Shown: positions 23,743 through 40,851 of the stretch, one piece after another
Numbering within the stretch: position 1 is the stretch's first letter
How the letters are laid out: every line of letters starts with the position of its first letter
Source: a virus
DNA: 48,727 nt
Strand: one strand, 5' to 3'
Virus record (IMG/VR): IMGVR_UViG_3300042691_021544
Coordinates: 1-48,727 of that record
Notes under the pieces: generated by a model
What the model was told of the DNA's origin: nothing
The model's input: only the letters and a program-made list of their open reading frames with translations
Database searches by the model: none
Program-made: the position numbers and the translations under genes

Positions 23743-23746
23743 TCCA

Positions 23747-25434: not shown

Positions 25435-27918
25435 ATGAACATCATGACTTTCTTGCTGGGTGCCTTCCGCATCGTCACCAACCACTTCCTCTCCGATCAG
25501 GAGAAGGCTGCGTACGAGGCGTCTGTTCAGACAAATCGCCCGCAGAAGGTGGAGGGTCGCGTTGTGGAACTCTACGCATTCACTCAGGGGCAGTGGTGGC
25601 ACTCGCTGCTCCTCAACAAGCTGCACAAGCGCGGGAAGAAATTCCGCCTTGCCAGCATCGACAACAAGACGCTCAAGGCACTGTGTGCTAAGAAGCGTCT
25701 TAACCTGCAGGAATTGGTGGATGAGTCCACCTTTGCTTGGGCAAATGCAACGACAACCTTCTTCCTCATGGTTGAAGGTGAGGCTGACTTTGGTCTCCGT
25801 TGCCTTGGGGTGTACGCCAAATACTCCAAGAAAACGCCAAAGCGTCTGCAGGAGATCAGTCGTCTCACTGAGATGGCTACGTCTGGTAAGATGCGCGATC
25901 TGGATTACACAATGTGTGATACAGTTGGCGTTGGTGAGCTGGCCTACGATGGCCCTATCTTCATCCGTAAGTCATTTGCTTTGCAGATGGCTAACCGCAT
26001 CAAGGACGATCACAAGCGTCGTCACATGCGGTACCTGATCCACAACGGTTCTTCTGGACCAATGTTGTTCAGGCTTCTGATGAAGTCGGGCAAGGTCAAG
26101 GGACTGGCGCATATCGTGGATGATGGCAATCTGGATTCAGATGTTGTCTTCCACAAGACTGCGCTCAAGACTGAAATCAACATGAACGATGGATTCTTTC
26201 ATGCGGTTGCATTCCGTATGAAGCATCTGTACAAGTCCGTGTGGAACATCCAGACTGCGGTTAACAACCACAGTTGGCTGTACACTGAGGATAAGTTCAT
26301 GTCCGATCTTGGGACGATTGTTCCGGAGCTCGTCAAAGCAATGGAGAAGGGTGAGATTCCAGAATGGATTCTGCACCAGGAGCAAGACGATCATGGAGAC
26401 GAGGATTCTCGTATTCAAGAGCACGTCACTGCATACTGGGAGCACCAGGCAAGGAAAATCGCCAGTCTTCGTTGGCAGATGAATCAATTCTCTGTCGATG
26501 CTTCGGCAAGCATCTTGCGCATGGCCTACGGCAGCGTGTACAATCAGATGAAAGCGTCTCTTGCTAATGGACGTATGTGGCTCCCAGTAACAAATGCCTT
26601 CTCGGCAACTGTTATCACGGTGGAGGCACTGCGTGACATGGGCGGATACGACATGGACACCTACATCAGTGAAAATGATCTTGAGAACAAGGTCTTCTTC
26701 ATGCCAAATGTTGGTGTTGTGTTCCCGGCAAAGCGGTTCATCGAGACTCAGGAGTTGCATGACACCTGGGACTCTGACGGTGATACCGTTAGCTTGGAGC
26801 GCATTCGTCTGTGGTCCAGCGATCCTTCGGTTACCGAAGCACGCAGGGAATACTGCATCATCCCCGAAGACATGGATGTACCATCCACGCCTGAGGAGGC
26901 AATTGATGCATGTGTGGCAATCCGTTCACCAAACAGCCCTGGCGGTTACAGCATCGAGCAATACGACGCTGCATCAATGCCATGGATGAGGGAGACGGAA
27001 AGCATCATCGTCATCGACTTGGCTAATACGCCACCATCATTGATGGAAATGCTCGATGAAACGGATGCTCAGCCACTCCATTCCACGAAGCGTTACAGCA
27101 ACGCACCAATGACTCGCGAAGATGCCCTTGAGGCAATCCAAGCGCAGTGGAGCAATCCAGGCATTGGTTCGTACGCAAACGCCATCATGGTGTGGGCAAG
27201 CGTGCACGGTCCAAGCATGCCAGACTTCCTGCCGTTTCAGGGCAATGATCTCATTGACTTGACGGCACAGACGTCTGACCTTGCTGCTTTCCAGGAAGCC
27301 AAAGAGGGTGTCGACTGCATGTGGGAATTCATGTCTCGCATGCACATGGATGTAGACAAGTACATCTACGACAACCGTGTTCCTGAGAAAGTAAAGAAGG
27401 AGCACAACTGGACAATTGTCGACGGACCATGGACTCGCATGCATGAGGCCTATGTTCAGACGGCAATCAAAGTCCAGCGTCTTGTGAACGAGCAGACATT
27501 TCAGATCAGGCAGAATTCGAACTTTGTGAAGTTCATGCGAAGCGAAATTCCTACCCTTTCACCAGGTGTACAGGAATGGGCTAAGCAGTTCTTCAACAAG
27601 TACGAAAAGATGCTTGCAGAAGTTGCTGCAATGTTTGCCGAAGACGAAGAAACTGGTAAGAAGAACCGCTTTCAGGTGCTCAATGAGTCATCTGACAGGG
27701 CGCAACTCACCAGCGACGTCGTTGCCGAGATGGTCAAAGAGCTTCAGGAAACTGCCTACCCAGGCAAGTATGCCATGGCTCTCTACCGTTGGATCACCGA
27801 TCCTCGCATGACTGCCTCCAAGTACGGTGTCTCGGACCGCATCATCTTCCAGGGTGGCAAGCCCGGACAGAAGACGGTCATGGACATCCTCATCGAGGGA
27901 TTGCTGGCACAGAGCTAG
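25435..27918 (+). CDS. 827-aa protein with D-x-D-G-D and RSPN motifs, paralogue of the 860-aa protein; possible polymerase-like
   Basis: I recognise no certain family. Near residue 445 it has WDSDGDTVSLE, and about 55 residues on, CVAIRSPNSPGGYS. DxDGD is the metal-binding motif of double-psi beta-barrel RNA polymerases (beta-prime, cellular RdRP, YonO-like). The order here, with RSP after DxDGD, is unlike the cellular order, so this is only a lead. The stretch from LPVTNAF through GGYDMD to WDSDGD aligns with IPIPCSV through AGYDIEV to HDEDDF in the 860-aa protein at 38269, indicating paralogy. It is the largest gene of the GC island. AGAAAGGGTAGGTC precedes the ATG. Confidence 0.6.
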   Translation: MNIMTFLLGAFRIVTNHFLSDQEKAAYEASVQTNRPQKVEGRVVELYAFTQGQWWHSLLLNKLHKRGKKFRLASIDNKTLKALCAKKRLNLQELVDESTFAWANATTTFFLMVEGEADFGLRCLGVYAKYSKKTPKRLQEISRLTEMATSGKMRDLDYTMCDTVGVGELAYDGPIFIRKSFALQMANRIKDDHKRRHMRYLIHNGSSGPMLFRLLMKSGKVKGLAHIVDDGNLDSDVVFHKTALKTEINMNDGFFHAVAFRMKHLYKSVWNIQTAVNNHSWLYTEDKFMSDLGTIVPELVKAMEKGEIPEWILHQEQDDHGDEDSRIQEHVTAYWEHQARKIASLRWQMNQFSVDASASILRMAYGSVYNQMKASLANGRMWLPVTNAFSATVITVEALRDMGGYDMDTYISENDLENKVFFMPNVGVVFPAKRFIETQELHDTWDSDGDTVSLERIRLWSSDPSVTEARREYCIIPEDMDVPSTPEEAIDACVAIRSPNSPGGYSIEQYDAASMPWMRETESIIVIDLANTPPSLMEMLDETDAQPLHSTKRYSNAPMTREDALEAIQAQWSNPGIGSYANAIMVWASVHGPSMPDFLPFQGNDLIDLTAQTSDLAAFQEAKEGVDCMWEFMSRMHMDVDKYIYDNRVPEKVKKEHNWTIVDGPWTRMHEAYVQTAIKVQRLVNEQTFQIRQNSNFVKFMRSEIPTLSPGVQEWAKQFFNKYEKMLAEVAAMFAEDEETGKKNRFQVLNESSDRAQLTSDVVAEMVKELQETAYPGKYAMALYRWITDPRMTASKYGVSDRIIFQGGKPGQKTVMDILIEGLLAQS

Positions 27919-27934
27919 TAAGAACCTCAAGTAA

Positions 27935-27980
27935 AGAGTGGCCCCTCGGGAAACCGGGGGGTCATCTCTTTATGGGTAGT
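27935..27980 (+). terminator. Terminator/GGGTAG cassette H
   Basis: Hairpin GCCCCTCGG-gaaa-CCGGGGGG, then TCATCTCTTTATGGGTAGT. A GGCCT...GAGGCC inverted repeat follows. Confidence 0.7.
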
Positions 27981-28024
27981 ACTCAGGCCTTAGAACTGAG
28001 GCCCACAAGTAAAGGAAAAATAAA

Positions 28025-28405: not shown

Positions 28406-28504
28406 CTCCCCTGCGTTGGACCGTTGTTACGGGCTAAACGAAAATAGGGGAGTTTTGCTTCCCCGCGATTGGGCCCCTGCTACGGGCTCAACGAAAATAG
28501 GGGA
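28406..28504 (+). ncRNA. Tandem structured RNA motif (two copies)
   Basis: Copy 1 (28406-28452) and copy 2 (28460-28504) share the layout: CTCCCC (or TCCCC), GCG, TTGG-type spacer, a small hairpin ending TACGGGCT, AACGAAAATA, and GGGGA(G). The outer stem pairs TCCCC with GGGGA. Inner hairpins differ (ACCGTtgttACGG versus GCCCCtgctACGGGC) but keep pairing. Two adjacent similar folds upstream of one gene recall tandem aptamers or protein-binding leaders. No known riboswitch class is recognised. Confidence 0.5.
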
Positions 28505-28566
28505 GCAATCCCAAGACCGCCCGTGGACGGACTCCACGAACCCGCGACTCAAGACAAGGAGAAAAC

Positions 28567-29034
28567 ATGCAGTCGCTTCGTAACACCAACCCGGCGCAGA
28601 CCATTGAGGTCTTCGTCAACGCCGCCGACAAGGGCGTCGTGTTCAACCGGACCGACGGAGAGGACTTTGCTCTTCCGCTGTTCGTCAACGTCCCGGTGGG
28701 CGTCCGCGAGTTCATCGTGGACCTCCTCGCCAAGGACGCTTCGGGCAAGGCTTCCAACGTCATCCGCTGGAGCCTCCCCGAATCCTCGCTGGTGAACCAC
28801 ACCATCAAGGACGGCGAGAACAAGGGCAAGCCGTGCCTGACGTTCAAGGTCACCCCGGAGCAGACCGACGAGTGGCTCGACGCTCTCGTTGAGGGCTGTG
28901 TCCCGCGTGGCACTCCGGCTCCCATCGTGGTCTCGGCCATCGAACGGGCCCGGGCCAAGGCTGCGGCCAAGTTCGCGGACTTCGCGTCTGCACCCCGTTC
29001 CACGGTGAACACCTCGGTCAGCCCCTTCGGCTGA
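28567..29034 (+). CDS. 155-aa protein, GC-rich gene, unknown
   Basis: The gene has AAGGAGAAAAC before the ATG and an obviously higher GC content than any gene to its right. The product has beta strands at the start (QTIEVFVNAADKGVVF) and an Ala-rich C-terminal helix (IERARAKAAAKFADFA). No recognised domain. It is preceded by the tandem structured leader and followed by a clear terminator, so it is a monocistronic, probably regulated and well-expressed gene. Confidence 0.6.
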   Translation: MQSLRNTNPAQTIEVFVNAADKGVVFNRTDGEDFALPLFVNVPVGVREFIVDLLAKDASGKASNVIRWSLPESSLVNHTIKDGENKGKPCLTFKVTPEQTDEWLDALVEGCVPRGTPAPIVVSAIERARAKAAAKFADFASAPRSTVNTSVSPFG

Positions 29035-29051
29035 TCCATCCCACACACCAG

Positions 29052-29098
29052 AGTCCCCAGTGTCAGGCATTGTGCTTGGCACTGGGGATTCTAAATTT
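29052..29098 (+). terminator. Intrinsic terminator
   Basis: Arms TCCCCAGTG and CACTGGGGA around a ~17-nt loop, followed by TTCTAAATTTTCT. It ends the 28567 unit and the GC island. Confidence 0.8.
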
Positions 29099-29147
29099 TC
29101 TAGTAGACACTTAGTCTTCTAGTTAATTTTTCACGTAGACCTTTAGG

Positions 29148-29158
29148 AAAATAGGGGA
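29148..29158 (+). promoter_or_regulatory. AAAATAGGGGA motif
   Basis: It lies 11 nt before the ATG of the 29170 gene and merges with its AAGGAG ribosome-binding site. A TAGACC box (possible -10) is about 12 nt upstream. Confidence 0.55.
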
Positions 29159-29169
29159 AGGAGACCCTA

Positions 29170-29427
29170 ATGATGAGCGATAATGAATACATTCCAATGC
29201 ATGAAGTTGATTTGTCCAATGGTGCAGAAGATACATGTTTCACCAATACAGTTTGTTATCACTGTGGGGAACGTAATCTTTTGAAGGTTGCGCGGATTCC
29301 ATTTCTGCGTTGGTACCAGCAGGAACTTCTTATTCAAGAAGCATTTCCTCGGCTGACTGCAGATCAGCGTGAACTGATTCAATCTGGCACTCATTCTAAA
29401 TGCTGGAACGAAATGTTTGGAGAATAA
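29170..29427 (+). CDS. 85-aa zinc-finger protein, unknown
   Basis: Begins MMSDNEYIPM with AAGGAG at good spacing. It has a CYHCGERN knuckle near residue 34 and a single late Cys (KCWNEM), so a complete zinc site is uncertain. In-frame CGG codons in VARIP and FPRL must be read as Arg because the +1 frames collapse. Confidence 0.6.
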   Translation: MMSDNEYIPMHEVDLSNGAEDTCFTNTVCYHCGERNLLKVARIPFLRWYQQELLIQEAFPRLTADQRELIQSGTHSKCWNEMFGE

Positions 29428-29428
29428 A

Positions 29429-29638
29429 ATGACTTTCCAACAATTTCATGCTCGTGTGCTTTCAATATACCAAATGCAACCAGTTCCCGGAGAACTTCGC
29501 TTAGGCCAAGTATTCTTTAACGAATTGGTTAAAATTCGTCCAGATATCGCAGAAGAACTGCGTGGTAGCATGATTGATCCATTCTTTAAAGAGCGGATCA
29601 CCAATGCTCTCGGTCAGTTCTGTCGTGAACGCTGGTAA
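29429..29638 (+). CDS. 69-aa protein, unknown
   Basis: ATG at 29429 with GGAG 7 nt before it; the start lies 1 nt after the previous stop. The protein is helical (QFHARVLSIYQM, RITNALGQFCRERW). An in-frame CGG (KERIT) is read as Arg. Family not recognised. Confidence 0.6.
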   Translation: MTFQQFHARVLSIYQMQPVPGELRLGQVFFNELVKIRPDIAEELRGSMIDPFFKERITNALGQFCRERW

Positions 29639-29664
29639 TTAAGTCTGCATGACACCTCCCGGTC

Positions 29665-29708
29665 ATGTGGGGTGGTCGGTCTTACCCTTTCTGCCGGCCA
29701 TCCCACAT
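29665..29708 (+). terminator. Long GC-rich hairpin between genes
   Basis: ATGTGGG..GGTCGG pairs with CCGGCC..CCCACAT. It has no T-tract, so it may be a processing or attenuating hairpin rather than a simple terminator. AAAATAGGGGA follows at 29724. Confidence 0.5.
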
Positions 29709-29723
29709 AGACTGGATTAAAGG

Positions 29724-29734
29724 AAAATAGGGGA
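29724..29734 (+). promoter_or_regulatory. AAAATAGGGGA motif
   Basis: Followed by AGGAG and the ATG at 29746, the same arrangement as at 29148. TAGACT is about 15 nt upstream. Confidence 0.55.
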
Positions 29735-29745
29735 AGGAGCCCAAA

Positions 29746-30048
29746 ATGTCTGACAAATATAATGATCCAGATTGGATTGCGGAAAAAATGTTTGGAGAGG
29801 AACATAACATGCCTGAAATAAAATTCACTTGGCAACAGACCGAGGAAACAACCGACGATCTTGCCTACTTCACCACCTGGAAAGCCATTAATGCTTTGCT
29901 TGCAGAGTTTGAAAAGCAGTATCTTGCTGGCGACCTCGGCAAAATGGCTTGGCAACGCGTCAACCACTACATCAAGACACTTCATGCAGTGAATCTTGCT
30001 GTAAAATTCACCCGTCTCTACGGAAAGGACAAAGAAAATGGACAATAA
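29746..30048 (+). CDS. 100-aa protein, unknown
   Basis: Acidic N-terminus (SDKYNDPDWIAEKMFG), then mainly helical. GGAAGGAGCCC precedes the ATG. It overlaps the next gene by 11 nt. No domain recognised. Confidence 0.6.
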   Translation: MSDKYNDPDWIAEKMFGEEHNMPEIKFTWQQTEETTDDLAYFTTWKAINALLAEFEKQYLAGDLGKMAWQRVNHYIKTLHAVNLAVKFTRLYGKDKENGQ

Positions 30049-30478
30049 TTCATCTTTCTCTGTCACAGTAAATGACCAACCTCCGAAGATGGAGTGCACA
30101 AACTGTGGCAAAATGTTCCCTACCACTCAACAATGGGGAAATTACATTGATGATGGTATTTCTATCAATGTCAACCAACTCGGTCACTACGGTGGCTTTA
30201 CTGACAACTTTCCACCTAAAGAAAAAGACTACGTAGCACACTTGTGCCACGACTGTGCTCTTATTCTTTTTGAAGCACTTCCAGGCTTTGCAGAATTTGC
30301 AGAGGTTCGTGGCGGCCATCCCAACAGAAACTGGCTTTCTGACCAAGAAGATGGCACAAACTTTAAACCTTGCTGCCAATTCGCATGGTGCTGGAACAAA
30401 ATCAGCGCAAATGAATACCACACATACCAAGCAAACAAGGACCTGGAATGGGTTCTAATGAGGAAGGACGTATCATGA
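30038..30478 (+). CDS. 146-aa zinc-binding protein, unknown
   Basis: CTNC near residue 21 and CHDC near residue 69 form a plausible zinc site; later CCQFAWCWN adds further cysteines. AAAGGACAAAGAAA precedes the ATG. It overlaps genes on both sides (11 and 4 nt), so it is part of a coupled early operon. No family recognised. Confidence 0.6.
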   Translation: MDNNSSFSVTVNDQPPKMECTNCGKMFPTTQQWGNYIDDGISINVNQLGHYGGFTDNFPPKEKDYVAHLCHDCALILFEALPGFAEFAEVRGGHPNRNWLSDQEDGTNFKPCCQFAWCWNKISANEYHTYQANKDLEWVLMRKDVS

Positions 30479-30768
30479 ATAACATTCAAGCATTCATTGA
30501 TGCAGGTGACGTATTCGACATCGCAGTCGAAGAAGGTCGTCTGCTTCATTACAACGGAGCACAGGCTTACATTCGTATGTGGCCTAAGCGTAATACTGTA
30601 ATGATTATTGATTTCTCGGCGGCCACAGAACCAGACATTAAAGTTTGGCTAAGTGAACAGTACGTGAACAACAATTGTCATTCAGGTAAACACTACCAAG
30701 AAAGCCTTAAGGACTTCTCCTTGAAGGAATTTCTCTACAGCCACTACAAGGAGAATGTAAATGCGTAA
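30475..30768 (+). CDS. 97-aa protein, unknown
   Basis: The start at 30475 is chosen because AGGAAGGACG precedes it and it overlaps the previous stop by 4 nt. It reads MNNIQAFIDAGDVFDIAVEEG, then alternating strands and helices (NTVMIIDFSAA, LKEFLYSHYKE). Family unknown. Confidence 0.6.
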   Translation: MNNIQAFIDAGDVFDIAVEEGRLLHYNGAQAYIRMWPKRNTVMIIDFSAATEPDIKVWLSEQYVNNNCHSGKHYQESLKDFSLKEFLYSHYKENVNA

Positions 30769-30856
30769 GCACATCACGGTATCAATTACCACCGTGTGCT
30801 TTGTCATCGGATTGTACGGTGGCAATGCACTTCGCAAACTTGTAAGGAGCAAGTAG
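30761..30856 (+). CDS. 31-aa single-pass membrane peptide
   Basis: Reads MRKHITVSITTVCFVIGLYGG followed by a basic tail. It overlaps the previous stop by 8 nt and abuts the next ATG; AAGGAG lies 7 nt before the start. One transmembrane helix. Small enough that function is unknown. Confidence 0.5.
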   Translation: MRKHITVSITTVCFVIGLYGGNALRKLVRSK

Positions 30857-31054
30857 ATGACTGATTACAACTTGCTCTGGTTTGTTTGCATTCTGATGAC
30901 AGCAAATCTCATTGCGGCAATCGGACTAATCGTTCAAGAACACCGTCGTAAATACGCTCCCAAAAAGTTTATTTATGAACAGAACGGCTACCCCTACGAC
31001 TGGAAATATCAAGAAGCAGTCGACATTCTAAACGACCAGAATAGAGCAGCGTAG
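30857..31054 (+). CDS. 65-aa single-pass membrane protein
   Basis: Hydrophobic segment LLWFVCILMTANLIAAIGLI (residues 6-25), then a basic and aromatic tail. GTAAGGAGCAAGTAG supplies its ribosome-binding site. It follows the 31-aa membrane peptide directly, so the two may act together in the envelope. Confidence 0.6.
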   Translation: MTDYNLLWFVCILMTANLIAAIGLIVQEHRRKYAPKKFIYEQNGYPYDWKYQEAVDILNDQNRAA

Positions 31055-31075
31055 AAATTACAATGTTCTAATTCG

Positions 31076-31086
31076 AAAATAGGGGA
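31076..31086 (+). promoter_or_regulatory. AAAATAGGGGA motif
   Basis: Followed by AAGGAGACCAA and a TTG start at 31098. TACAAT, a good -10 box, lies 16 nt upstream. Confidence 0.55.
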
Positions 31087-31097
31087 AAGGAGACCAA

Positions 31098-31160
31098 TTG
31101 TTCGAATGGTTATTTGATTTAATCTCAGAACTAATTGACACATTATTTGGCGGAAAATAA
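31098..31160 (+). CDS. 20-aa amphipathic peptide (TTG start)
   Basis: Reads FEWLFDLISELIDTLFGGK after the start, an amphipathic helix rich in Leu, Ile, Phe and acidic residues. AAAGGAG sits 6 nt before the TTG and the recurrent motif is directly upstream. It may be a real peptide gene or a leader peptide for the 31181 gene. Confidence 0.4.
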   Translation: MFEWLFDLISELIDTLFGGK

Positions 31161-31180
31161 ACTAAAGGAGAAAATTCAAA

Positions 31181-31384
31181 ATGAAGCCAAAGAATATTGC
31201 AGGGTCTGTGGGAAAAATCACAGGAAAAACTCTCAGGGTTTTGAAGGATACACCTTCAAAAACAGGAAACAAACTGACAACCGCAAAGAGCGAGTTCATC
31301 AGTGGATTCCGTAATGAAATTCCTACCAAGGAAATCAAGAAAATAGGGGAAGTGGAAACACTGACCCCGGAAGTAATCAACTAA
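31181..31384 (+). CDS. 67-aa basic protein, unknown
   Basis: Lys/Thr/Ser-rich (MKPKNIAGSVGKITGKTLRV). TAAAGGAG precedes the ATG. A copy of AAAATAGGGGA lies inside its 3' end (31340-31350), encoding KIGE, so that copy is probably chance or a promoter for the 31410 gene. Confidence 0.55.
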   Translation: MKPKNIAGSVGKITGKTLRVLKDTPSKTGNKLTTAKSEFISGFRNEIPTKEIKKIGEVETLTPEVIN

Positions 31385-31409
31385 AATATCACACAATAAG
31401 GAAAAAAAC

Positions 31410-32468
31410 ATGACATCACTACTTCAGAAAATCACAAACACCAGCAACTTGGCCAAAGTATCTGCAGATGAAGCAGAGAACTTTGGTCGCAAGAGCACCA
31501 ACCCAGCACTCGTGCTGAACAAGCGTGTTAAGGTTCCCGGCTCACTCAATGGAATTCAGATTCCTACTTGGGCAACGCTTCGGAATGCTGAATGGCACCG
31601 TATCACCGTGCGTGATCACAACGTTGCCACCACGCCTAGCCGTGAAGGTTATGTGAGCCAGGTCGTTGGACTTGCCATGCGCAATGTTCACATCGACATT
31701 GAACTCGAACTTGACGGCCAGATCATGACCATGGATCAGTTCATTCAGGAATTCGTCAAGAGCCTGATTGCCCGCAAGGAAAACCAGACTGACGCAGAGT
31801 TTGATGCAGTTGTCCGTGAAAAGATGTACAACTGTGGCGTTCGTCTCGATGGCGGAATGAGCATGTTCCTTCAGCACATGGGTGCCAAGCAGGAAGCATA
31901 CCAGCATGCCGTTGAATTGTTCAAGGCAGCAGGTGCGCAAGATGACATTCAGTCTGTCAAGAACTCCCCGGCATTCCACATTGCCTATGACTTCAACAAG
32001 ATGGAGGGCCTCAAGGTCGTCTCTCTTGAGATGGTGTCTGCAGATCGCAGCCAGTCGGTCATGGGCAAGAAGTATGGACATGGATTCATTGACCTTCCGG
32101 ATGCAATCTTCGAGAACTTCAAGCGTGTTTGGAGTCACAACACCATGATTATGGGTCTCGAAGGAGAACTTCAGAAGGAAGGCCTGAGCCAAGAGCGTAC
32201 AAAGGAAATCGCCAGTGCCATCAAAGATGAGCGCACCATGGCAAACACCTTCTTCAACTCCATCTCTGGTGCAACCCGTCGTCGTGATGCGTCGACCGGT
32301 GCAGAGCTGGTGAAGATTGACGCTCAGAACATCGGTTGTGGTCGTTGGTCCGCTGTGATCAACGATGCTTCTGTGGACTTTGACGTCTGGTCAAACTCGG
32401 ACAAGAAGCCCAGCGAGTCGTTCACCAAGAATACCATCTCGGTGGACACCAGCCAGAAGCCGTTCTGA
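31410..32468 (+). CDS. 352-aa protein, unknown, well-expressed codon use
   Basis: I do not recognise the family. The protein is mixed alpha/beta with GIQIPTWATLRNAEWHRITVRD near 48 and a Lys-rich linker before the C-terminus. It includes a central helical region (QAYQHAVELFKAAGAQDD). AATAAGGAAAAAAAC precedes the ATG. GC content is higher than in flanking genes. One in-frame CGG (TLRNAEW) is read as Arg. The gene is followed directly by a highly structured non-coding segment. Confidence 0.6.
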   Translation: MTSLLQKITNTSNLAKVSADEAENFGRKSTNPALVLNKRVKVPGSLNGIQIPTWATLRNAEWHRITVRDHNVATTPSREGYVSQVVGLAMRNVHIDIELELDGQIMTMDQFIQEFVKSLIARKENQTDAEFDAVVREKMYNCGVRLDGGMSMFLQHMGAKQEAYQHAVELFKAAGAQDDIQSVKNSPAFHIAYDFNKMEGLKVVSLEMVSADRSQSVMGKKYGHGFIDLPDAIFENFKRVWSHNTMIMGLEGELQKEGLSQERTKEIASAIKDERTMANTFFNSISGATRRRDASTGAELVKIDAQNIGCGRWSAVINDASVDFDVWSNSDKKPSESFTKNTISVDTSQKPF

Positions 32469-32860
32469 TTGATTGTGGGGGACTGCGTGTATAACGCGTC
32501 TTAAACGACACTGTGGTGTGCCCCACTACAATCCGCATGGTTGGCGGATAAAACCCTCTCACTAGCATACTGAGAATGTTCCAACCAAGTATGCCTACGG
32601 GAATGTATCGGAGTATTGAACTCAAACAGATTCTGCACACTACAAATAGTGTGAACTGGTTGTCATCCTAATCCGTACAGTTCAATAGCAGGTTCAAGTC
32701 CTGCCATTCCCACCGAGTACCTTGGATAAGGCTTATCTATAGCATAAAGTTATAGATTGATATGCGAAGCAGGACCTTCTGATAAGCGCCGAATGATTAA
32801 TGCTACTTCACTAGTATTAGTCTACCTGTGAAGAGGTAGTCCAAGGGAAAGTCTAACTAT
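32469..32860 (+). ncRNA. Candidate large structured RNA with tRNA-like domain
   Basis: No gene is visible, but pairing is dense. GATTG-TGGGG pairs CCCCA-CTA-CAATC (32469-32533) enclosing a GACTGCG...CGCGTC hairpin. GGTTGG pairs CCAACC (32539-32587). At 32599-32712, GGGAATG pairs CATTCCC around a T-arm-like GCAGG-TTCAAGT-CCTGC, ending A-CC, as in a tRNA, but the middle (114 nt total) has no proper D-arm or anticodon arm; it has CACACTA-CAAA-TAGTGTG. At 32718-32846, CCTTGGA pairs TCCAAGG enclosing GCTTATC/GATAAGC and CTTCAC/GTGAAG stems. No known class is certain; GOLLD-like phage RNAs, some of which hold a tRNA, are one comparison. Confidence 0.55.
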
Positions 32861-32890
32861 TTTTATTTTTACTAATTCAAAAGGAGAAAA

Positions 32891-33091
32891 ATGAAAAACT
32901 TCTGTGGAGAAATCACCTACGAAACCAGCGAAGGGAACGTTCATTCAGACATCTGTAAGCACAACTATGATGTCCTGCCGGAAAACTACCGTAAGTTCTT
33001 GCACGAGTGCTTGGATGAATGGCTCGACAAGGCAAACAACACAGGTGCTTTCTGGATCGGTGATCCCAAGTACTTTCAACAGCAGAATTAA
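32891..33091 (+). CDS. 66-aa protein, unknown
   Basis: AAAAGGAGAAAA precedes the ATG. The product MKNFCGEITYETSEG... is acidic with a helix (YRKFLHECLDEWLDKA). It is immediately downstream of the structured RNA candidate, which could be its leader. A terminator follows. Confidence 0.6.
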   Translation: MKNFCGEITYETSEGNVHSDICKHNYDVLPENYRKFLHECLDEWLDKANNTGAFWIGDPKYFQQQN

Positions 33092-33098
33092 TACAAGG

Positions 33099-33380: not shown

Positions 33381-33596
33381 ATGCCTCGGCAGCATCAATC
33401 CAAATCTATGAAAAGAGTATTGACAGAATTGTCAAGACTAGGTTTTGTAGTGGATAAACGTAAATCGGGAACCTATCGGATTATCCCTCCCTCAACTATA
33501 GGTGGACCAATTTACACGACTCATGGCACGGAATCAGCTTTGCATCCCATGCGCCGTGACTTTAAAAAATATTATAATATAGAGATCCATATATAG
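33381..33596 (+). CDS. HicA-like small protein (double-stranded RNA-binding fold)
   Basis: A 71-aa basic protein, with VLTELSRLGFVVDKRKSGTYRIIPPS and HPMRRDFKKYYN. The 'helix, G-[FW]-x-V, K-x-G-[TH]-x-x-[IV]-x-P' layout matches HicA/YcfA-like proteins common in actinophages. The usual catalytic His after Gly is replaced by Thr (SGTYRI), so RNase activity is doubtful. No HicB partner is adjacent. AGGAGGAAAC precedes the ATG. In-frame CGGs (PRQ, YRI) are read as Arg. Confidence 0.5.
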   Translation: MPRQHQSKSMKRVLTELSRLGFVVDKRKSGTYRIIPPSTIGGPIYTTHGTESALHPMRRDFKKYYNIEIHI

Positions 33597-34090
33597 ATCT
33601 TGTATCCCCAGTGGGGGTATCTGTAACCTAGTTAGGTGGTGGCTAGGCCAGCAGGTACTCCCACTTCTCTATTACAGAGAATACATTAATCTATTCATTC
33701 CTCTATATATAGATATATAACACTCTCAGTATAATAATAGGTACACTACAGTACACAATAAGGGTACATCTGTGTACACACTATAACTAATAATGTTAAT
33801 AAAAATAAAAATATAATACTTTATAGGGGGGCACCCATATGGAATGGATATGGAATGGATATGGAATGGATATAAAACTATAATATATAACTATAAAATA
33901 ATATAAACTAATATAAACCACTAAGCACTAAAAACACAAAGGAGAGAAGTGGGGAGAAATGGGGAGTATTCCCTCTATTATATTCTCCTATATAATCTTC
34001 TCTCTATATACTTCTATATACTTATACTTAATATCAAAAAATTCATTTGCGGCGAAATTCAAATAATAAAAAACCAAAATACAGACACAA
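33597..34090. other. 494-nt non-coding AT-rich region with repeats
   Basis: No gene is visible. It holds a TATCCCC-ag-TGGGGGTA hairpin near 33605, several GTACAC/TGTACA elements (33730-33782), three exact tandem copies of an 11-mer GGAATGGATAT at 33841-33873, and long A/T tracts. Iteron-like repeats next to AT-rich DNA suit a replication origin or a regulator-binding region. Confidence 0.5.
33841..33873. repeat. Three tandem 11-bp repeats (GGAATGGATAT)
   Basis: Three exact head-to-tail copies, preceded by CCCATAT and followed by AAAACTATAATATATAACTATAAAATAA. They could be iterons. Confidence 0.85.
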
Positions 34091-34163
34091 GCCCTGGTAG
34101 CTCAGAGGATAGAGCAACGGACTTCTAATCCGCAGGTCGTAGGTTCGATTCCTACTCAGGGCA
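34091..34163 (+). tRNA. tRNA-Arg (anticodon TCT)
   Basis: Acceptor GCCCTGG pairs TCAGGGC (one G-U), D-arm GCTC...GAGC, seven-nt anticodon loop CTTCTAA (TCT), T-arm GTAGG-TTCGATT-CCTAC. CCA is not encoded. It reads AGA, the favoured Arg codon of the AT-rich late genes. It does not read CGG. Confidence 0.95.
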
Positions 34164-34176
34164 CTTATGATAATTA

Positions 34177-34187
34177 AAAATAGGGGA
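34177..34187 (+). promoter_or_regulatory. AAAATAGGGGA motif
   Basis: It forms ATAGGG...CCCTAT (34181-34205) with downstream sequence, 50 nt before the 34237 ATG. TATGAT lies 10 nt upstream and could be a -10 box. Confidence 0.5.
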
Positions 34188-34236
34188 ACTTATAGTTAAT
34201 CCCTATATTTCTCTATAACTAAGGAGTTAAAATAAC

Positions 34237-34608
34237 ATGTCAATTCCGGCGGACTGGAAAGATTGCTACTTCATTCTCTTTAAACGGAATGAAGATGGCA
34301 CTGTGGATTCTACGTACGTAAAGCCTATCATTCAAGCACAGCGTAAGACAGGAGAACTTCTGGACTTCTATGGTGTGCGTGCATCCAAGTATGGAATTAA
34401 GATTCCTCCGTTTAGCACTGGATGGGCTGTTATTCATGTCAATGATGATGATACAAAAACAGTGATTTCCGGCGAAATCATTGAGCCGAAATCCAAGAGA
34501 ATTTGGGAGCTTTCTGATGGACGCATTGTCATGATGCGTCGAGGAACTACCAACATCTCTATCAACATCTCTGCTCATCCCAAGGTTTTCAAATCTCTCA
34601 AGGTTTGA
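34237..34608 (+). CDS. 123-aa protein, unknown
   Basis: Starts at ATG 34237 with AAGGAGTTAAAATAAC before it. The protein is beta-rich (WKDCYFILFKRNEDG, GWAVIHVNDDDTKTVISG). An in-frame CGG in FKRNE is read as Arg. Family unknown. Confidence 0.6.
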   Translation: MSIPADWKDCYFILFKRNEDGTVDSTYVKPIIQAQRKTGELLDFYGVRASKYGIKIPPFSTGWAVIHVNDDDTKTVISGEIIEPKSKRIWELSDGRIVMMRRGTTNISINISAHPKVFKSLKV

Positions 34609-34694
34609 TAAAACGGCAGGTAAATTCAAAATACTGCCTATAACATCAAAATATTTTAAAATATTATTGATACTCTTAAAGTTAAGGACAACCA

Positions 34695-35228
34695 ATGAAA
34701 CTGTCATTTAGCCTTAATGGCACAAGCTATATTGCTGAGGGAACCTCAGAAGAAATTGGCTTCATTATCGGTGCTTTGCGGCAAACCGAAGCCTCGAACA
34801 TCAGAGTCACCAAGGCTCTGAACGAGAGTGCTCCGGTAGTAAAGACCAGTAAGTTTAACAAGCCTGTTACTTCTGATCTGACCAAGCAGCAGAAGGACTA
34901 CGTCTCTTCTCTGTTTGTCTACCCACCCAGCAATCGTACCCCTGTAGGTAAGCCTGCTTACCTCATGTCGATCATTGTAGATGGCAAGCCCCGTACAGTG
35001 AAAGAGCTTCTCAAGCTCGGCAACTGCACAACTGCATGCCTTCGCAATGTCATCACCAGAATGCGTGAATCTGGCTCAATCGTTGAGGTGAGCTCTGCTA
35101 ATCTCAATGCTGATACCATCGTTCAGATGACTCTGATGACCACCAAAAAGCTCAAGCCAGCTAAGCGTAAGAAGGCTACTCCAGCCCAAAAGCTTAACGT
35201 ATCACAATTCAAAAATCTGACAATTTAA
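34695..35228 (+). CDS. 177-aa protein with a winged-helix-like segment
   Basis: The N-terminal ~60 residues are of unknown fold. Residues 95-130 (KPRTVKELLKLGNC..., RNVITRMRESGSIVEV) look like a helix-turn-helix/winged-helix unit, and the C-terminus is Lys-rich. It probably binds DNA. In-frame CGG (ALRQTE) is read as Arg. It has a weak ribosome-binding site (AAGGACAACCA). Confidence 0.5.
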   Translation: MKLSFSLNGTSYIAEGTSEEIGFIIGALRQTEASNIRVTKALNESAPVVKTSKFNKPVTSDLTKQQKDYVSSLFVYPPSNRTPVGKPAYLMSIIVDGKPRTVKELLKLGNCTTACLRNVITRMRESGSIVEVSSANLNADTIVQMTLMTTKKLKPAKRKKATPAQKLNVSQFKNLTI

Positions 35229-35382
35229 TTGTCGGATCCTTGTAAGATCTGGGTACAGAATTACTCCTTTAATTCTGTATGAGTCACTCCCTTCTTTTCC
35301 GCTAAGAAGTTTAGACTCCGCTAGGCGCACATCCCCCATGCAGCGACCCTAGCGTCCAGACTTACATGGACTTTTTTTTAAA
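35229..35382 (+). ncRNA. Structured leader or small RNA ending in an intrinsic terminator
   Basis: TACAGAATT pairs AATTCTGTA (35251-35276). CGCTAGG pairs CCTAGCG (35319-35354) around a C-rich loop. GTCCA pairs TGGAC (35354-35373) and is followed by eight T. It could be the terminator region of the 34695 unit, an attenuator for the 35403 gene, or a separate small RNA. Confidence 0.5.
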
Positions 35383-35402
35383 AAGGCAGGAGTCTATACT
35401 AC

Positions 35403-35879
35403 ATGATGATCAAAGTAGAGAATGCTGAATATCCTCATGACTTTATGGAGGCCCCAGCCCCCACAATTCCAAGCCATGTTTATCCAATTTTGGATGTACA
35501 TCATGGTCTTTGGAATCGTGACAAATCTGTCACTTACAAGTCTAAAGAATATCAGACATATACACCCACACATGATGGGTATTCCTCAGTAATTTTACCA
35601 AATGAAAATGGCTACAATTTTCTTTGGATCACTCAAAATTTAAACAAGTCTTCTGGTGCATCTTTGGAGATCATTCGGTCGCGTTCTCAAGGAGACGACA
35701 CTCGTGTCACTTGGATAGTCGACAACTCTAATAATAAATTTACTTACGTCGGATTAGTCAAAACAACTGACTATTTCGACGGGAAGAAATCAATTATTAT
35801 TGAACGCTATGATAGCCAAGGCACTCAGATTATCTACTCTACCGATCCAGCAAAAACCACCAGACGCTCTTCGATCTAA
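35403..35879 (+). CDS. 158-aa protein, unknown
   Basis: Starts ATG ATG ATC after GGCAGGAGTC. The product is beta-rich, with NGYNFLWITQNLNKSSG near 71 and TYVGLVKTTDYFDGKKS near 118. No domain recognised. In-frame CGG in EIIRSRS is read as Arg. Confidence 0.6.
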   Translation: MMIKVENAEYPHDFMEAPAPTIPSHVYPILDVHHGLWNRDKSVTYKSKEYQTYTPTHDGYSSVILPNENGYNFLWITQNLNKSSGASLEIIRSRSQGDDTRVTWIVDNSNNKFTYVGLVKTTDYFDGKKSIIIERYDSQGTQIIYSTDPAKTTRRSSI

Positions 35880-35885
35880 TTCAAA

Positions 35886-36010
35886 ATTGTTGACACTCAG
35901 ATATTATATATCTTGTACACTAACTTGTACATATATAATATATGATTTGTAATGCGTTCTGCACAAAAGTTAATTATATGATATAATTAATCTTTGTAAA
36001 GATATAATAT
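35886..36010 (+). promoter_or_regulatory. Promoter region with palindromes
   Basis: TTGACA at about 35891 is a consensus -35; TATA-rich sequence follows. TTGTACA-ctaac-TTGTACA and the perfect inverted repeat TTAATTATAT-g-ATATAATTAA (35970s) are likely operator-type elements. They precede the helix-turn-helix gene at 36057, which may bind them. Confidence 0.5.
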
Positions 36011-36056
36011 TTATATACCTTTATACAACAAAACAACTACTAAAAAAGGATATAAA

Positions 36057-36308
36057 ATGCCAAAGCCAAGCAAGACACCAGCAATTGAGTCGTTCCTTTC
36101 ATCCAATGTAGGAAAGTCATTTGCCACCAAAGATATGTGCGATGAGATTGGATGCTCGCTTCCAACTCTTCTCAATTATATCAAGGCAAATCCTGCCAAG
36201 TTTACTCAGGTTTCCTATGGAACTTACCTTATCAATTCTGATGTCACCTCAATTACAACAATCAATTCTGCGTCATCTGTCACAGATGAAGAGTGGGAAA
36301 ACAATTAA
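36057..36308 (+). CDS. 83-aa helix-turn-helix protein
   Basis: FATKDMCDEIGCSLPTLLNYI (residues 22-42) fits a helix-turn-helix, followed by a wing-like strand pair (KFTQVSYGTYLIN). AAAAAGGATATAAA precedes the ATG. It is probably a transcriptional regulator of nearby early genes; palindromes upstream suggest autoregulation. Confidence 0.6.
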   Translation: MPKPSKTPAIESFLSSNVGKSFATKDMCDEIGCSLPTLLNYIKANPAKFTQVSYGTYLINSDVTSITTINSASSVTDEEWENN

Positions 36309-36335
36309 ATAATTAAATATTAACGGTACTATTTT

Positions 36336-36362
36336 GCTTATCGTCTATCGTGGACGATAAGC
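36336..36362 (+). terminator. Strong hairpin after the helix-turn-helix gene
   Basis: GCTTATCGTC and GACGATAAGC form a perfect 10-bp stem with a 7-nt loop. There is no T-tract directly after it, so it may act as a processing signal or a Rho-independent terminator of weak type. Confidence 0.5.
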
Positions 36363-36439
36363 GCAGAGCTGTTTATTCAAAGATAACTCTTCTTTGAATT
36401 AACAATTAAATATAATAGTTTGTGCGAAAGGATACTCAG

Positions 36440-36607
36440 ATGCCAAAAAAGAAATCTTTGGAATCTACATCTGATGTTGATGTGAACAGCCTTCATTTGA
36501 AGGCTCTTGTTCTCATATCCAATCGACTCGCAGAAGTTGCAGATGAAATTAAACTTTTGCGAGAGCATCTTGCTACAAACTCGATCAAGGAGAAATCCGC
36601 TGAATAA
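36440..36607 (+). CDS. 55-aa helical protein, unknown
   Basis: Starts MPKKKSLEST with AAAGGATACTCAG before it. Residues 20-45 form a helix of coiled-coil type (LKALVLISNRLAEVADEIKLL). Function unknown. Confidence 0.55.
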   Translation: MPKKKSLESTSDVDVNSLHLKALVLISNRLAEVADEIKLLREHLATNSIKEKSAE

Positions 36608-36648
36608 ACACTTGTTACACCACCTAAAAAATGATAGAATAATCACCA

Positions 36649-36745
36649 TGCCCGGAACACCTGGGCAGGGGGTAGAATCCCCTACGTAACAGTAATACTG
36701 TGAAGTCGGAGAGGCAACCAACTGCCAACTTGTGACGGGCATCTC
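36649..36745 (+). promoter_or_regulatory. Riboswitch-like structured leader of the Rpf/lysozyme gene
   Basis: ATGCCCG (about 36649) pairs CGGGCAT (about 36736), closing a domain with GGGGGTAGAATCCCC, ACAGT-aat-ACTGT and GGCA-accaac-TGCC hairpins. Actinobacterial rpf genes are often preceded by c-di-AMP (ydaO) riboswitches, and some strings (GGGTAGAATCC, ACTGTGAAGTCGGAG) also recall cobalamin riboswitches; neither consensus fits fully. The class is undecided. Confidence 0.45.
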
Positions 36746-36840
36746 GTATGTGTCCGTACATCTTCGGTTTCGCAACCTGCGCGATGCTAATGTCAGCCGT
36801 AATACTGGTTGACAGAAAACAGACGAAAGGAGCGAACACG

Positions 36841-37647
36841 ATGCGCAAAATAGGACAGGCACTGATAGCAACTATCTGTGCACTAACATTAATACAATTC
36901 CCAACACCCGTTAAAGCTCAGAGCTGGAAGCTTGTCAGCTTTAAAATGGGTGCTACAGTCAAGTACTGGGATCAAGTAGCTGCCTGCGAGTCAGGTCAGC
37001 CACAATCCCAAGTTAATTGGCGTAGGGAAGGTATGTTAGCTGGTGGTCTAAGAATAATGACCAATGGCAAATATGGAGATGCTGACCAAGGAACTTGGGA
37101 GATGTTTGGTGGAGAGCAATTTGCTTCTTCACCTGACAAAGCTACCAAGTTCGAGCAGATCATAGTAGCTAATCGTATTGCTGTTTTAGGCTGGAAGCCT
37201 GAAACTAGCAAGCGTGTTAACCCATTAGGTTATAAAAATTGGTCATGTATTCGAACGTCCAAATTAGAATCATACTGGAAGACAACATATACTGTAAATC
37301 TGCCAACAGATGAATCACAGTATTGTCCAAAGTTTTCAAAGTTATTTGCAAAATATGGACTTCCAGTTCAAGTATTTTCCTACATTGCATACCGCGAATC
37401 AAGATGTAATCCTGGTGCGGTTAATGCTAAATGGAGCAATGGAAAAATAGTTTGGACGCTCAACAAGAATGGTACCTATGACTCTGGTCTATTGCAGATC
37501 AATTCGTCATGGTTCGGTACTCTCAACAGAGAGACTGGACATACATCTAAGGATCTTATGAATCCTAAGATAAATGCCTACTTTGCTAGTTGGATACTTC
37601 ATAACACAACTTCTAGGTTGGGCAACTGGAGTATCAGAACTTACTAG
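36841..37647 (+). CDS. Secreted Rpf-like plus lysozyme-like cell-wall hydrolase
   Basis: A 268-aa protein from MRKIGQALIATICAL, with CGAAAGGAGCG before the ATG. Residues 1-26 are a Sec signal peptide ending at KAQ. The first domain (WDQVAACESGQPQSQVNWR, then QGTWEMFGGEQFASSPDKATKFEQ) matches resuscitation-promoting-factor-like transglycosylases: catalytic Glu in ACESG. A second domain has YRESRCNPGAVN and DSGLLQINSSW, a transglycosylase SLT/lysozyme signature with its own Glu. It therefore probably cuts peptidoglycan outside the membrane. It may assist lysis, superinfection, or host growth. Confidence 0.75.
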   Translation: MRKIGQALIATICALTLIQFPTPVKAQSWKLVSFKMGATVKYWDQVAACESGQPQSQVNWRREGMLAGGLRIMTNGKYGDADQGTWEMFGGEQFASSPDKATKFEQIIVANRIAVLGWKPETSKRVNPLGYKNWSCIRTSKLESYWKTTYTVNLPTDESQYCPKFSKLFAKYGLPVQVFSYIAYRESRCNPGAVNAKWSNGKIVWTLNKNGTYDSGLLQINSSWFGTLNRETGHTSKDLMNPKINAYFASWILHNTTSRLGNWSIRTY

Positions 37648-37682
37648 CAGTAATATAATAAAATATAATACAAATTTATTAG

Positions 37683-37716
37683 AAAACAGGGGTTCCAATG
37701 GGATCCCTGTTTTTTA
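37683..37716 (+). terminator. Intrinsic terminator
   Basis: AAAACAGGG pairs CCCTGTTTT around a 15-nt loop, followed by T residues. It ends the hydrolase unit. Confidence 0.8.
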
Positions 37717-37744
37717 ATTCTAAAACAAATATAATGCTAATCCA

Positions 37745-37755
37745 AAAATAGGGGA
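37745..37755 (+). promoter_or_regulatory. AAAATAGGGGA motif
   Basis: TATAAT lies 14 nt upstream. The downstream gene starts at 37807. Confidence 0.55.
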
Positions 37756-38268: not shown

Positions 38269-40851
38269 ATGTCAGCCAACTACAAGCCCACTGTTCGACT
38301 TCACTCTCAACACAACGGACCACTTCGGTCCATGAATGATTATCAGTTTGGATTCTATGACTGTGGTATTCTGCGCACTGCTCTTCAGAGCATTGCTTCT
38401 GCAGATCCCAGTTCAGATCCATCGTTTCGCATGGCTACCATGCCAATTCCACAAACTCCTAATGAGGCAATGATTGCAGAACAAGTTATCCGTCACCCGG
38501 ATGTTTGTTATGCTGTTGTTGACAAGGACAAGATTGCTCTTGTTATTGTTGAAGGAGAGCCCGGTTGGCTCAACATCTTTACCAAAATGGGCTATGAAGT
38601 CCGTGCAGGCGATAAGACCTCAAAGCGACTTAAGACCTTCCATCGTGCAGCATTGCTCAATGCTCACTTTGATAAAGATGAGATTGGTATTCAAATCGTT
38701 GAGCCTGATGCTTATTCTCGTTATGACTTTAACGAAGAAGTAGCACCTTGGCTTTCTGATAAAGAAACCGTCAAAAGACTTCTTGATGGCGGTTTCGTCA
38801 TTTCTCATCGTCTCATTCAAAAGGCTGTTAAGAACATTCCTGTTTATCAGCCACAAAATACTACTGATAATAAAGAGTATTATTACGATTGGCGCATTCG
38901 CAACAAGATGGTTAACAACTTGTTGAACCATCGTATCTATAATGCTCGTATTATCTTTGAAGGTGGATTCATCAAGGGCAATGCAATTGTTCGAGATGAT
39001 CTTCCTGAGGGTATTGATATCATCACTTCTCGTGATAACATTAAGAATGAGATCGCTTATCATAATGGCTTTCAGTTTCTTGCAGAACCGCAAGGTTCTC
39101 ATGAACGAGTCGTAACCGACGATCAGACTGTAATCAATCTTCGTAAACTCTTCCGTAAAGCTGACATGCAGATGTGGCTTGAGGAAGAATACAAGAAGAT
39201 GTTCAATGCAGCTGTTAATTCTCAACTTCTAAGCAACTGGCGTGAAATCTACAAACGAGATTTCCGCAATGCTCACTCTTCTGAAGATGAGGAAAGCAGT
39301 TCTCGCATGAGCTACGTTGGTTATCGTTGGGTAGCAAGTGGAATGAAAATTACTCATTCACCTTGGCTATTTGAAACTCTTGCAGTTTCTCATGCCAAGC
39401 CACTTATTCCGACTCCCAAGCGTTCTGCCCATATTCCCATTCCATGTTCTGTCTATGAGCAAGTGATTCCTGAATCTCTTGCTCGTATGGCAGGCTATGA
39501 TATTGAGGTTGAAGAGGACGAAATCAAGCGTATTCCTGAGCTTGGCGTTCATGTTGTTAACGATCTTGACTGGCTGGAAATGTATGCTAGTCATGGCGGA
39601 CATGATGAGGACGATTTCTTCAAGCTCTTCTATCGGGAAATGGAAGGTGGAAAATATGACGGAGAGAAAGTTGTCATTGTAGCTCGTTCTCCAAATGGCT
39701 ATGGTGAACTATCAATCTTTCGTTATGTTGAAGGACAATGGCATCCTAAATGGCACAAGGCTGACGGCACAGAAGTAACATTCCCGAAGGTGAATGGACG
39801 CAACTGGCCTAAGCGATTGAGTGAAGCAGTTCGTGCAGGCACAGTTCAGTATGGAAAGTTTCCATCTGAGCTTCGCCCTAAGAATAAAATGACAGGATTG
39901 TACACTGCTGACAATGTAATCCATGACATGCGTGTAGCAATGTCTGGAGGAAATGTCGGCGGTTATGTCAATGCTGCCATGGCTCACTCGCTTGTGCTTC
40001 ATCGCCATCGTCCATACCAACTTTGTTCTCTCGAGAAGGCTATCGACAAGTGCATTAATCCAGACGACATCGATGATGTTCGTGCGATTGACCAGGAAGC
40101 AAAAGAAATTGCCAGAGAGATTATCGAATCTGGCAAGCCTATTGATTTTGATTTCTGGGAGCGTCGTGGATTTTCTCGCTATGTTGCTGAAGATGATGAG
40201 ATTACCTTCTATGAAGGCAAGATCACTCAGATGAACAAGCTGTCCATTGATCTTTACACTAAGTATTGTGCTAAAGTTCGTCAATGGGCACAAGAAAATG
40301 CTAGACCAGATGACATCGTCATGAAGCTTGGTGAGCGTTATTTCCCAACAGCACTTCGTGTTGTAAAAGATTTCCGATCAAAGATCCATCGTGTCAATAG
40401 TTCTGAAGCAACTATTTCCACTGGACCTATTGTTCGTGATTCTTGGGAATCACTCTACAAGATGATTGTCGACTCTATTCTTTGGCATGAACGTCCTGAA
40501 GATCAGCATGACTTTGTTCTTGCTCTTTATGCAGTCTCACTGCAGATTCCAACTGGAGGAGGCAAGATTACGGATCAAATCGTTATGAATCGATTTGTTT
40601 ATCCTTATCTTGAATCTGCTCTTCATTTCTACGGAATTACACGTACACCTGTGTGCGTTGCAACTCCTGACGGTGATGTACAAGTCACCTATGTAAAGAA
40701 GATCAGTTGGGTATGGCAGGACAAGTATGGCAATATAATTAAGTACAATGATCCTCTTAAATTCCAAGAGGCTCATAGTCTTGATTCTCCTACCTATCAG
40801 TCTATTCCCGTTACTCAAACACATAACCCTAGAACCACTTCTTCTATCTAG
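38269..40851 (+). CDS. 860-aa protein with D-x-D-D/RSPN signature, paralogue of the 827-aa protein
   Basis: No certain family. GGFIKGNAIVRDD lies near residue 228; AGYDIEVEEDEI, HGGHDEDDFFKL (near 443) and VVIVARSPNGYGELS (near 473) match in order and spacing the GGYDMD, WDSDGD and AIRSPNSPGG blocks of the 827-aa protein, so the two are paralogues. A D-x-D-x-D site and an upstream conserved Lys are features of double-psi beta-barrel polymerases, but the RSP block follows rather than precedes the Asp site. A phage RNA polymerase-like role is a hypothesis. Several in-frame CGGs (PLRSM, YREME) are read as Arg. AAAGGAGAAAT precedes the ATG. Confidence 0.6.
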   Translation: MSANYKPTVRLHSQHNGPLRSMNDYQFGFYDCGILRTALQSIASADPSSDPSFRMATMPIPQTPNEAMIAEQVIRHPDVCYAVVDKDKIALVIVEGEPGWLNIFTKMGYEVRAGDKTSKRLKTFHRAALLNAHFDKDEIGIQIVEPDAYSRYDFNEEVAPWLSDKETVKRLLDGGFVISHRLIQKAVKNIPVYQPQNTTDNKEYYYDWRIRNKMVNNLLNHRIYNARIIFEGGFIKGNAIVRDDLPEGIDIITSRDNIKNEIAYHNGFQFLAEPQGSHERVVTDDQTVINLRKLFRKADMQMWLEEEYKKMFNAAVNSQLLSNWREIYKRDFRNAHSSEDEESSSRMSYVGYRWVASGMKITHSPWLFETLAVSHAKPLIPTPKRSAHIPIPCSVYEQVIPESLARMAGYDIEVEEDEIKRIPELGVHVVNDLDWLEMYASHGGHDEDDFFKLFYREMEGGKYDGEKVVIVARSPNGYGELSIFRYVEGQWHPKWHKADGTEVTFPKVNGRNWPKRLSEAVRAGTVQYGKFPSELRPKNKMTGLYTADNVIHDMRVAMSGGNVGGYVNAAMAHSLVLHRHRPYQLCSLEKAIDKCINPDDIDDVRAIDQEAKEIAREIIESGKPIDFDFWERRGFSRYVAEDDEITFYEGKITQMNKLSIDLYTKYCAKVRQWAQENARPDDIVMKLGERYFPTALRVVKDFRSKIHRVNSSEATISTGPIVRDSWESLYKMIVDSILWHERPEDQHDFVLALYAVSLQIPTGGGKITDQIVMNRFVYPYLESALHFYGITRTPVCVATPDGDVQVTYVKKISWVWQDKYGNIIKYNDPLKFQEAHSLDSPTYQSIPVTQTHNPRTTSSI

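Follow-up and report, generated by a model that had tools for sequence, protein, structure and literature searches.

Two genes of an uncultured virus very probably encode paralogous single-chain two-barrel RNA polymerases, in which the order of the motifs suggests that the R-x-P strand is relocated and which would form a probable two-polymerase cascade. To the further reading that they represent a new and deep family of phage RNA polymerases, with R-x-P after the Asp loop unlike the two-barrel polymerases compared and with a shifted DxDD motif in one member, we give about an even chance. The window, i.e., the whole stretch of DNA analysed, corresponds to a complete IMG/VR virus record (48,727 bases); since contigs of the relatives reach 268 kb, the record probably covers only part of a larger genome. 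The phage is known only from metagenome DNA, and the two proteins were previously unannotated. The two genes are as follows.

25435..27918, plus strand: gene A (827 aa), predicted to encode a two-barrel RNA polymerase in a single chain, with DSDGD
38269..40851, plus strand: gene B (860 aa), the paralogue of gene A, predicted to encode a two-barrel RNA polymerase whose Asp site is non-canonical

Both open reading frames lie where the original prediction had placed them, although the word 'giant' used there overstates proteins of this size. The difference in base composition between the two genes was confirmed, GC being 51.7% in A and 42.7% in B (GC3, 62.9% and 35.5%), and it fits the rise of GC at about 22-30 kb of the window, where the region of gene A and the element 2 zone described below shows 48-53% against 30-40% in the left arm. 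Elsewhere in the record, the large terminase is apparently split into two minus-strand open reading frames, 9902-10576 (ATPase-like, 224 aa) and 8719-9867 (nuclease-like, 382 aa), both matching phrog_2 but in different parts. The minus-strand frame at 12479-15400 encodes a 973-aa protein, perhaps a divergent replicative DNA polymerase, whose only match, to DNA polymerase exonuclease subunits, is weak (E 0.008). Shortly upstream of gene B, the plus-strand frame at 36748-37647 encodes a protein with two lysozyme-like domains (Transglycosylas, SLT), and lysozyme-like frames seem to be similarly placed in loci L009, L012 and L013, as judged by eye from the translations.

The resemblance to double-psi beta-barrel RNA polymerases, originally proposed from a DxDGD motif, was examined on AlphaFold models of A (pLDDT 82.1, pTM 0.81; 16 sequences) and B (pLDDT 81.5, pTM 0.78; 23 sequences). 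In Foldseek searches of the PDB, two-barrel RNA polymerases made up all 14 matches of A and all six matches of B at E <= 0.001, those of A including maize RDR2 (7w82, E 5.1e-8), QDE-1 and P74 gp62. The Foldseek TM-scores were low, the best rows reaching 0.36-0.41 with rmsd above 11 A, which indicates either that the domain arrangement differs or that the models are imprecise. With VIA-align, model A matched 7w82 at Z 13.5 (591 aligned, 6.5 A), 8f72 (gp64) at Z 10.1 (396 aligned, 5.1 A) and the crAss enzyme 6vr4 at Z 6.2, against Z 4.4 for the best unrelated row, while model B matched 7w82 at Z 13.9 (565 aligned, 8.2 A), 8f72 at Z 10.4, 8h2n (gp96) at Z 8.1 and 6vr4 at Z 5.4, against Z 4.7 for the best unrelated row and only Z 3.5 for PolD. 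The matches to two-barrel enzymes extend over nearly the full length of both chains and stand above unrelated folds. As the models confidently match two-barrel RNA polymerases and nothing else, the polymerase idea is well supported at the level of fold. Isolated double-psi barrel (DPBB) domains matched the Lys-carrying barrel (about 147-260 in model A, 131-273 in model B) and not the Asp region, in weak agreement with an unusual Asp barrel.

The paralogy of A and B and their colinear arrangement, both claimed from the start, were borne out by a profile-profile comparison built from four sequences of each family (probability 98.7, E 3.8e-16, 540 columns). The claimed blocks are present and aligned in order, PVTNA, GGYD and IRSPN in A corresponding to PIPCS, AGYD and ARSPN in B. 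A two-sequence BLASTP gave only E 0.002 over 42 residues, and a profile made only from the B family picked up A-family genes in other contigs (E 4e-6 to 3e-3).

Relatives of A were found at 17 loci in IMG/VR, and an independent DNA pattern for RSPNxPGGYSI detected 17 stretches in the identical set of 17 contigs. Relatives of B occupy 18 loci in 18 records, all uncultured phage contigs. The A gene is present in eight of the 18 B-bearing records (G001-G005, G009, G012 and G016), and a search with the A profile added a divergent A-slot gene, with motifs DLDD[ST] and RNPND, in three more (G019, G020 and G025); with the same profile none was found in the other seven, where the records may be incomplete and detection is limited. 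Record G022, which may also be incomplete, carries two B-type genes and no A that we could find. In all 11 records in which both were found, the A-slot gene precedes B in the same orientation, the two starts being separated by about 10-17 kb, but these are not independent cases because several of the records carry identical proteins. In the alignments, identical proteins were counted once (L025, L028, L031, L034, L037 and L038, and also L079, L080 and L086); L094 is a partial sequence, and the remaining rows are not independent of one another, L029, L032, L035 and L036, for example, being close.

Beyond these contigs, two uncharacterised proteins of uncultured Caudovirales phages in BFVD strongly matched the A model (E 2.1e-35, TM 0.76; E 1.2e-31, TM 0.66). 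Neither A nor B matched Pfam or PHROGs, nor did their distant relatives match PHROGs; tblastn detected no relative of either protein among GenBank phages and none of A, the only one of the two searched there, among plasmids, and GTDB species genomes contained no relative of either family. A search of the record with the Pfam RdRP family (PF05183) gave no match at E <= 10; B. subtilis responded to it below cut-off. Sequence comparison linked A and B to no known RNA polymerase family. A single tblastn match of the divergent relative L096 (E 4) was rejected as chance-level, and matches to a repressor and to p300 in profile searches of the PDB were likewise rejected as chance. Among relatives of A, L027 (1119 aa) and L030 (1068 aa) carry long and differing N-terminal extensions, a sequence feature that suggests fusion with other genes or a wrong start. 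Locus L013 encodes small proteins (1311-1652 and 12314-12643) with a Cys pattern that we take to be that of WhiB regulators, which hints at actinobacterial hosts.

The residues most likely to form the active site were located from the alignment of both families.

25948..25953, plus strand: A Asp-Gly, residues 172-173, start of the Lys-carrying barrel (DPBB-B), invariant in A and B
26098..26103, plus strand: A Lys-Gly, residues 222-223, candidate catalytic Lys in DPBB-B, invariant in A and B
26770..26784, plus strand: A DSDGD, residues 446-450, predicted metal-binding Asp triad
26923..26934, plus strand: A RSPN, residues 497-500, R-x-P motif, after the Asp motif
27166..27180, plus strand: A GxxxN, residues 578-582, candidate start of the bridge helix
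38785..38790, plus strand: B Asp-Gly, residues 173-174
38974..38979, plus strand: B Lys-Gly, residues 236-237
39604..39615, plus strand: B DEDD, residues 446-449, followed by F/Y at position 450 and so without the third Asp of DxDxD
39685..39696, plus strand: B RSPN, residues 473-476, after the Asp motif
39958..39972, plus strand: B GxxxN, residues 564-568, candidate start of the bridge helix

In an alignment of 23 A and B sequences, DG, R, KG, D, K, E, H, DxD and RSPN are among the invariant residues (in A numbering, 172-173, 213, 222-223, 236, 245, 247, 442, 446/448 and 497-500), the KG block and another Lys being in the expected order in both families. The roles of these residues are assigned by analogy. 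The Arg of R-x-P, a hallmark of RNA polymerases, contacts the incoming NTP. In the proposed active site, DPBB-B (DG...R...KG) would face DPBB-A with its DxDGD motif, the Asp residues of A would hold Mg2+, the Lys of the KG block would help phosphotransfer, the Arg of RSPN would contact the incoming NTP, and the GxxxN segment would start the bridge helix. The blocks of A and B correspond one for one to those invariant in three YonO-like proteins (D196 G197, R225, K230 G231, D237, R452-x-P454, D499-x-D501-G-D503, G553 and N557), except that R-x-P and DxD are swapped.

That the block order differs from known enzymes had been noted originally, and the observation is correct. R[SN]PN follows DxD by 26-57 residues in all 30 A and B rows, a count from which the divergent L097, although read, was left out. 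In each of seven reference phage RNA polymerases (YonO of phi3T, PMBT24, TR-TP1, gp64 of P23-45, gp64 of TSP4, gp96 and phi14:2 gp77), R-x-P stands before the Asp motif by about 37-47 residues, for instance 43 in YonO of phi3T and 37 in gp64; MT835481, whose open frame is truncated at the Asp motif, was not counted. In RDR2, K-N-P lies about 47 residues before DLDGD. The motif order is thus seen directly in the sequences, and from it and the models we infer the topology of the barrel. We rate as evenly balanced the proposal that the R-x-P strand has moved to a position after the Asp loop, so that the catalytic barrel would consist of the same pieces in another order. A simple circular permutation was also weighed; relocation of the R-x-P hairpin appears to agree better with the strand pattern of the models than rotation alone does.

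The main alternative, to which we attach an appreciable probability though one well short of even, is that A and B are two-barrel RNA polymerases of canonical strand order, with RSPN as an unrelated loop behind the catalytic barrel and with loss of the usual R-x-P. A possible parallel for such a loop exists in cellular beta', where a conserved SP-x-x-G stretch follows DFDGD. A 20-residue profile of the RSPN segment ranked R-x-P first in only one of the seven references and second in the two gp64 proteins, while a profile of the DxD segment ranked its site first in six of seven; the attempt to prove statistically by segment profiles that RSPN is R-x-P thus largely failed, and the full profiles likewise gave no significant alignment with the YonO-like profile (probability 0.5 for A and 0.3 for B), direct homology to YonO being undetectable by profiles. 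The equation of RSPN with R-x-P therefore rests on a short core, on its invariance and on the lack of a rival strictly invariant Arg or Lys. A basic position ahead of the Asp motif, R346 of A and R353 of B, is nearly invariant and could be counted for the canonical order, but it is sometimes Lys, lies in a helix and is followed by Trp, not by x-Pro. No strictly invariant Arg or Lys was found between the Lys barrel and the Asp motif in the alignment of both families, and RSPN, invariant in both, is accordingly the best candidate for the NTP-contacting Arg. Against the canonical order, the RSPN core and its flanks also resemble ILRSPH of YonO, FRNP of gp96 and YRIPNQG of the crAss enzyme, the divergent relative L096 reads LLRNPNDFGEW, and the top local match of B to the YonO-like profile, itself non-significant, pairs RSPN with RSP. 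In both models the Asp loop is flanked by three strands on either side, unlike in PolD, where it joins strands five and six according to PMC4996933.

The D-x-D-[GD]-D block originally assigned to both proteins was not borne out in B. The Asp triad stands in A, which reads DSDGD, and DxDGD is found in 12 of 13 A-slot rows, the remaining one reading DLDDS. B reads DEDDF, and DxDD[FY] is present in all 17 distinct B rows, indicating that the third Asp is missing and that the position before it is an Asp. In YonO, replacement of all three Asp by Asn inactivated the enzyme, as reported in PMC5467207, and PolD works with only two of the three Asp conserved, as described in PMC4996933. Judged from the sequence, B may either use a shifted Asp site or be inactive. 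An arrangement in which only A is active and B is a catalytically dead paralogue, serving as a partner or regulator and perhaps as a heterodimer with A, appears rather unlikely to us. It would agree with the absence of the third Asp from every B row and with the joint, fixed-order occurrence of an A-slot gene and B in 11 of the 18 B-bearing records, but the Lys, the Arg, two Asp and the extra neighbouring Asp are strongly conserved in B, and the possibly incomplete record G022 has two B-type genes in the apparent absence of A.

Short repeated elements surround the two genes, and the original prediction had suggested that polymerases of this kind could transcribe from them.

28441..37755, plus strand: zone holding the 8 copies of element 1, AAAATAGGGGA, that lie between genes A and B
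28441, 28494, 29148, 29724, 31076, 31340, 34177 and 37745, plus strand: starts of these element 1 copies
48356..48366, plus strand: ninth copy of element 1
22484..27979, plus strand: zone of element 2, TTTATGGGTAG, 7 exact copies
22484, 23118, 23487, 23776, 24108, 24949 and 27969, plus strand: starts of the element 2 copies
25341..25351, plus strand: TTTGTGGGTAG, an element 2 variant about 85 bp before gene A that immediately follows a terminator-like hairpin

The first of the two elements proposed is real, with nine copies on the plus strand and none on the minus strand. GGGTAG, the second, is present but proved to be part of the longer element 2, with seven copies on the plus strand and none on the minus strand; six precede gene A and the seventh follows it closely. 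A third-order Markov model predicts 0.03 copies of each element over the two strands together. All seven exact copies of element 2 follow hairpins with T-rich tails, and after those at 23487, 24949 and 27969 the presumed transcripts begin, as seen by eye, with a second small hairpin, which would make each early unit a series of terminator, element, 5' hairpin and gene. Between 21 and 40 kb, terminator-like hairpins number 44 against 15.2 in shuffled sequences (sd 3.5), and sigma-70-like promoters show no excess in the same region (38 against 31.8, sd 6.0).

The same zones recur in near relatives. Record G001 shows the same two zones, with element 2 present nine times and the 10-base core of element 1 five times, and G006 has six copies of element 2 upstream of A and four of its five element 1 copies just beyond A. 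Among 10 records searched, the core of element 1 was found in eight and element 2 in six, several of them having stray copies only, and a reversed-pattern control also gave single matches. In loci of more remote relatives, element 2 takes the form TTTATGACTAG or TTTATGCCTAG, and some of these loci have a weak element 1 or none; promoters that co-evolve with their polymerases would be expected to vary in this way. Around gene B, repeats of the AATGAATCA type number 21 on a single strand across 7 kb of L088 and 14 in L086, and possibly represent a different promoter or a coding repeat.

Being strand-specific, zoned and conserved in near relatives, the elements behave like phage promoters and are probably the promoters of a two-polymerase cascade. 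We consider it fairly improbable that they are instead host promoters, translation signals or processing sites without relation to the A and B polymerases. Some copies of element 1 stop 7 or 11 nt short of a start codon, and their GGGGA could bind the ribosome, but other copies lie tens of bases from any start, element 2 regularly follows a hairpin and T-run, and element 2 varies as a set in the relatives. For the promoter reading, the zoning of the elements is observed, and by analogy their use by the polymerases would be as follows. Element 2 promoters would drive the early block including gene A, element 1 promoters would drive the following block up to gene B, and the two enzymes would form a temporal cascade as in Thermus phage P23-45. 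Our guess is that B, carried in the virion, reads element 2, and that A, made early, reads element 1.

Finally, it is very improbable that A and B are PolD-like two-barrel DNA polymerases or primases, which share the two barrels and in PolD function with two of three Asp as B would need, since the best structural matches are RNA-synthesising enzymes (PolD, Z 3.5 for B), promoter-like elements surround both genes, and R-x-P, for which RSPN is the candidate here, is typical of RNA polymerases.

Two-barrel polymerases transcribe all cellular genomes, and the topology of their catalytic core is treated as fixed. If the arrangement proposed here is true, it is a natural rearrangement of the active site within the universal RNA polymerase core, which would mean that this core tolerates strand rearrangement, bear on the origin of the barrels and help to explain why profile searches miss such polymerases in metagenomes. 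In the open-access literature searched, outside which most subscription papers fall, no paper on such a family or motif order was found. The system is compact, consisting of two polymerases and two simple promoter-like elements, and the cascade is directly testable.

Among known systems, the best structural matches to A and B over nearly the whole chain are the eukaryotic RNA-dependent RNA polymerases RDR2 and QDE-1, which likewise combine a single chain, two barrels and a DxDGD motif. RDR2 has [RK]-x-P before DxDGD, unlike A and B, and these enzymes show no sequence similarity to A and B, which are phage genes. YonO of Bacillus phage SPbeta and YonO-like proteins, single-chain phage RNA polymerases of similar size, share the same set of conserved blocks, but the order of the blocks differs and the profile match is non-significant. 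Phage P23-45 has two divergent two-barrel RNA polymerases, each with its own promoter class, as PMC10770324 describes. The window encodes two paralogues whose models match its gp96 (virion) and gp64 (non-virion), along with two zoned elements, but gp96 and gp64 keep the canonical order and triad, and gp96 is fused to the tape measure whereas A and B are free genes. The crAss-like phi14:2 virion RNA polymerase (6vr4) also has two barrels in one chain and an R-I-P-N-x-G core very like RSPNG; the structural match is weak, and this enzyme, of 2180 aa, has RIPN before DFDID, unlike A and B. Archaeal PolD DP2 resembles B in having two barrels with only two of three Asp conserved (PMC4996933), but it is a DNA polymerase of canonical topology and matches model B only at Z 3.5.
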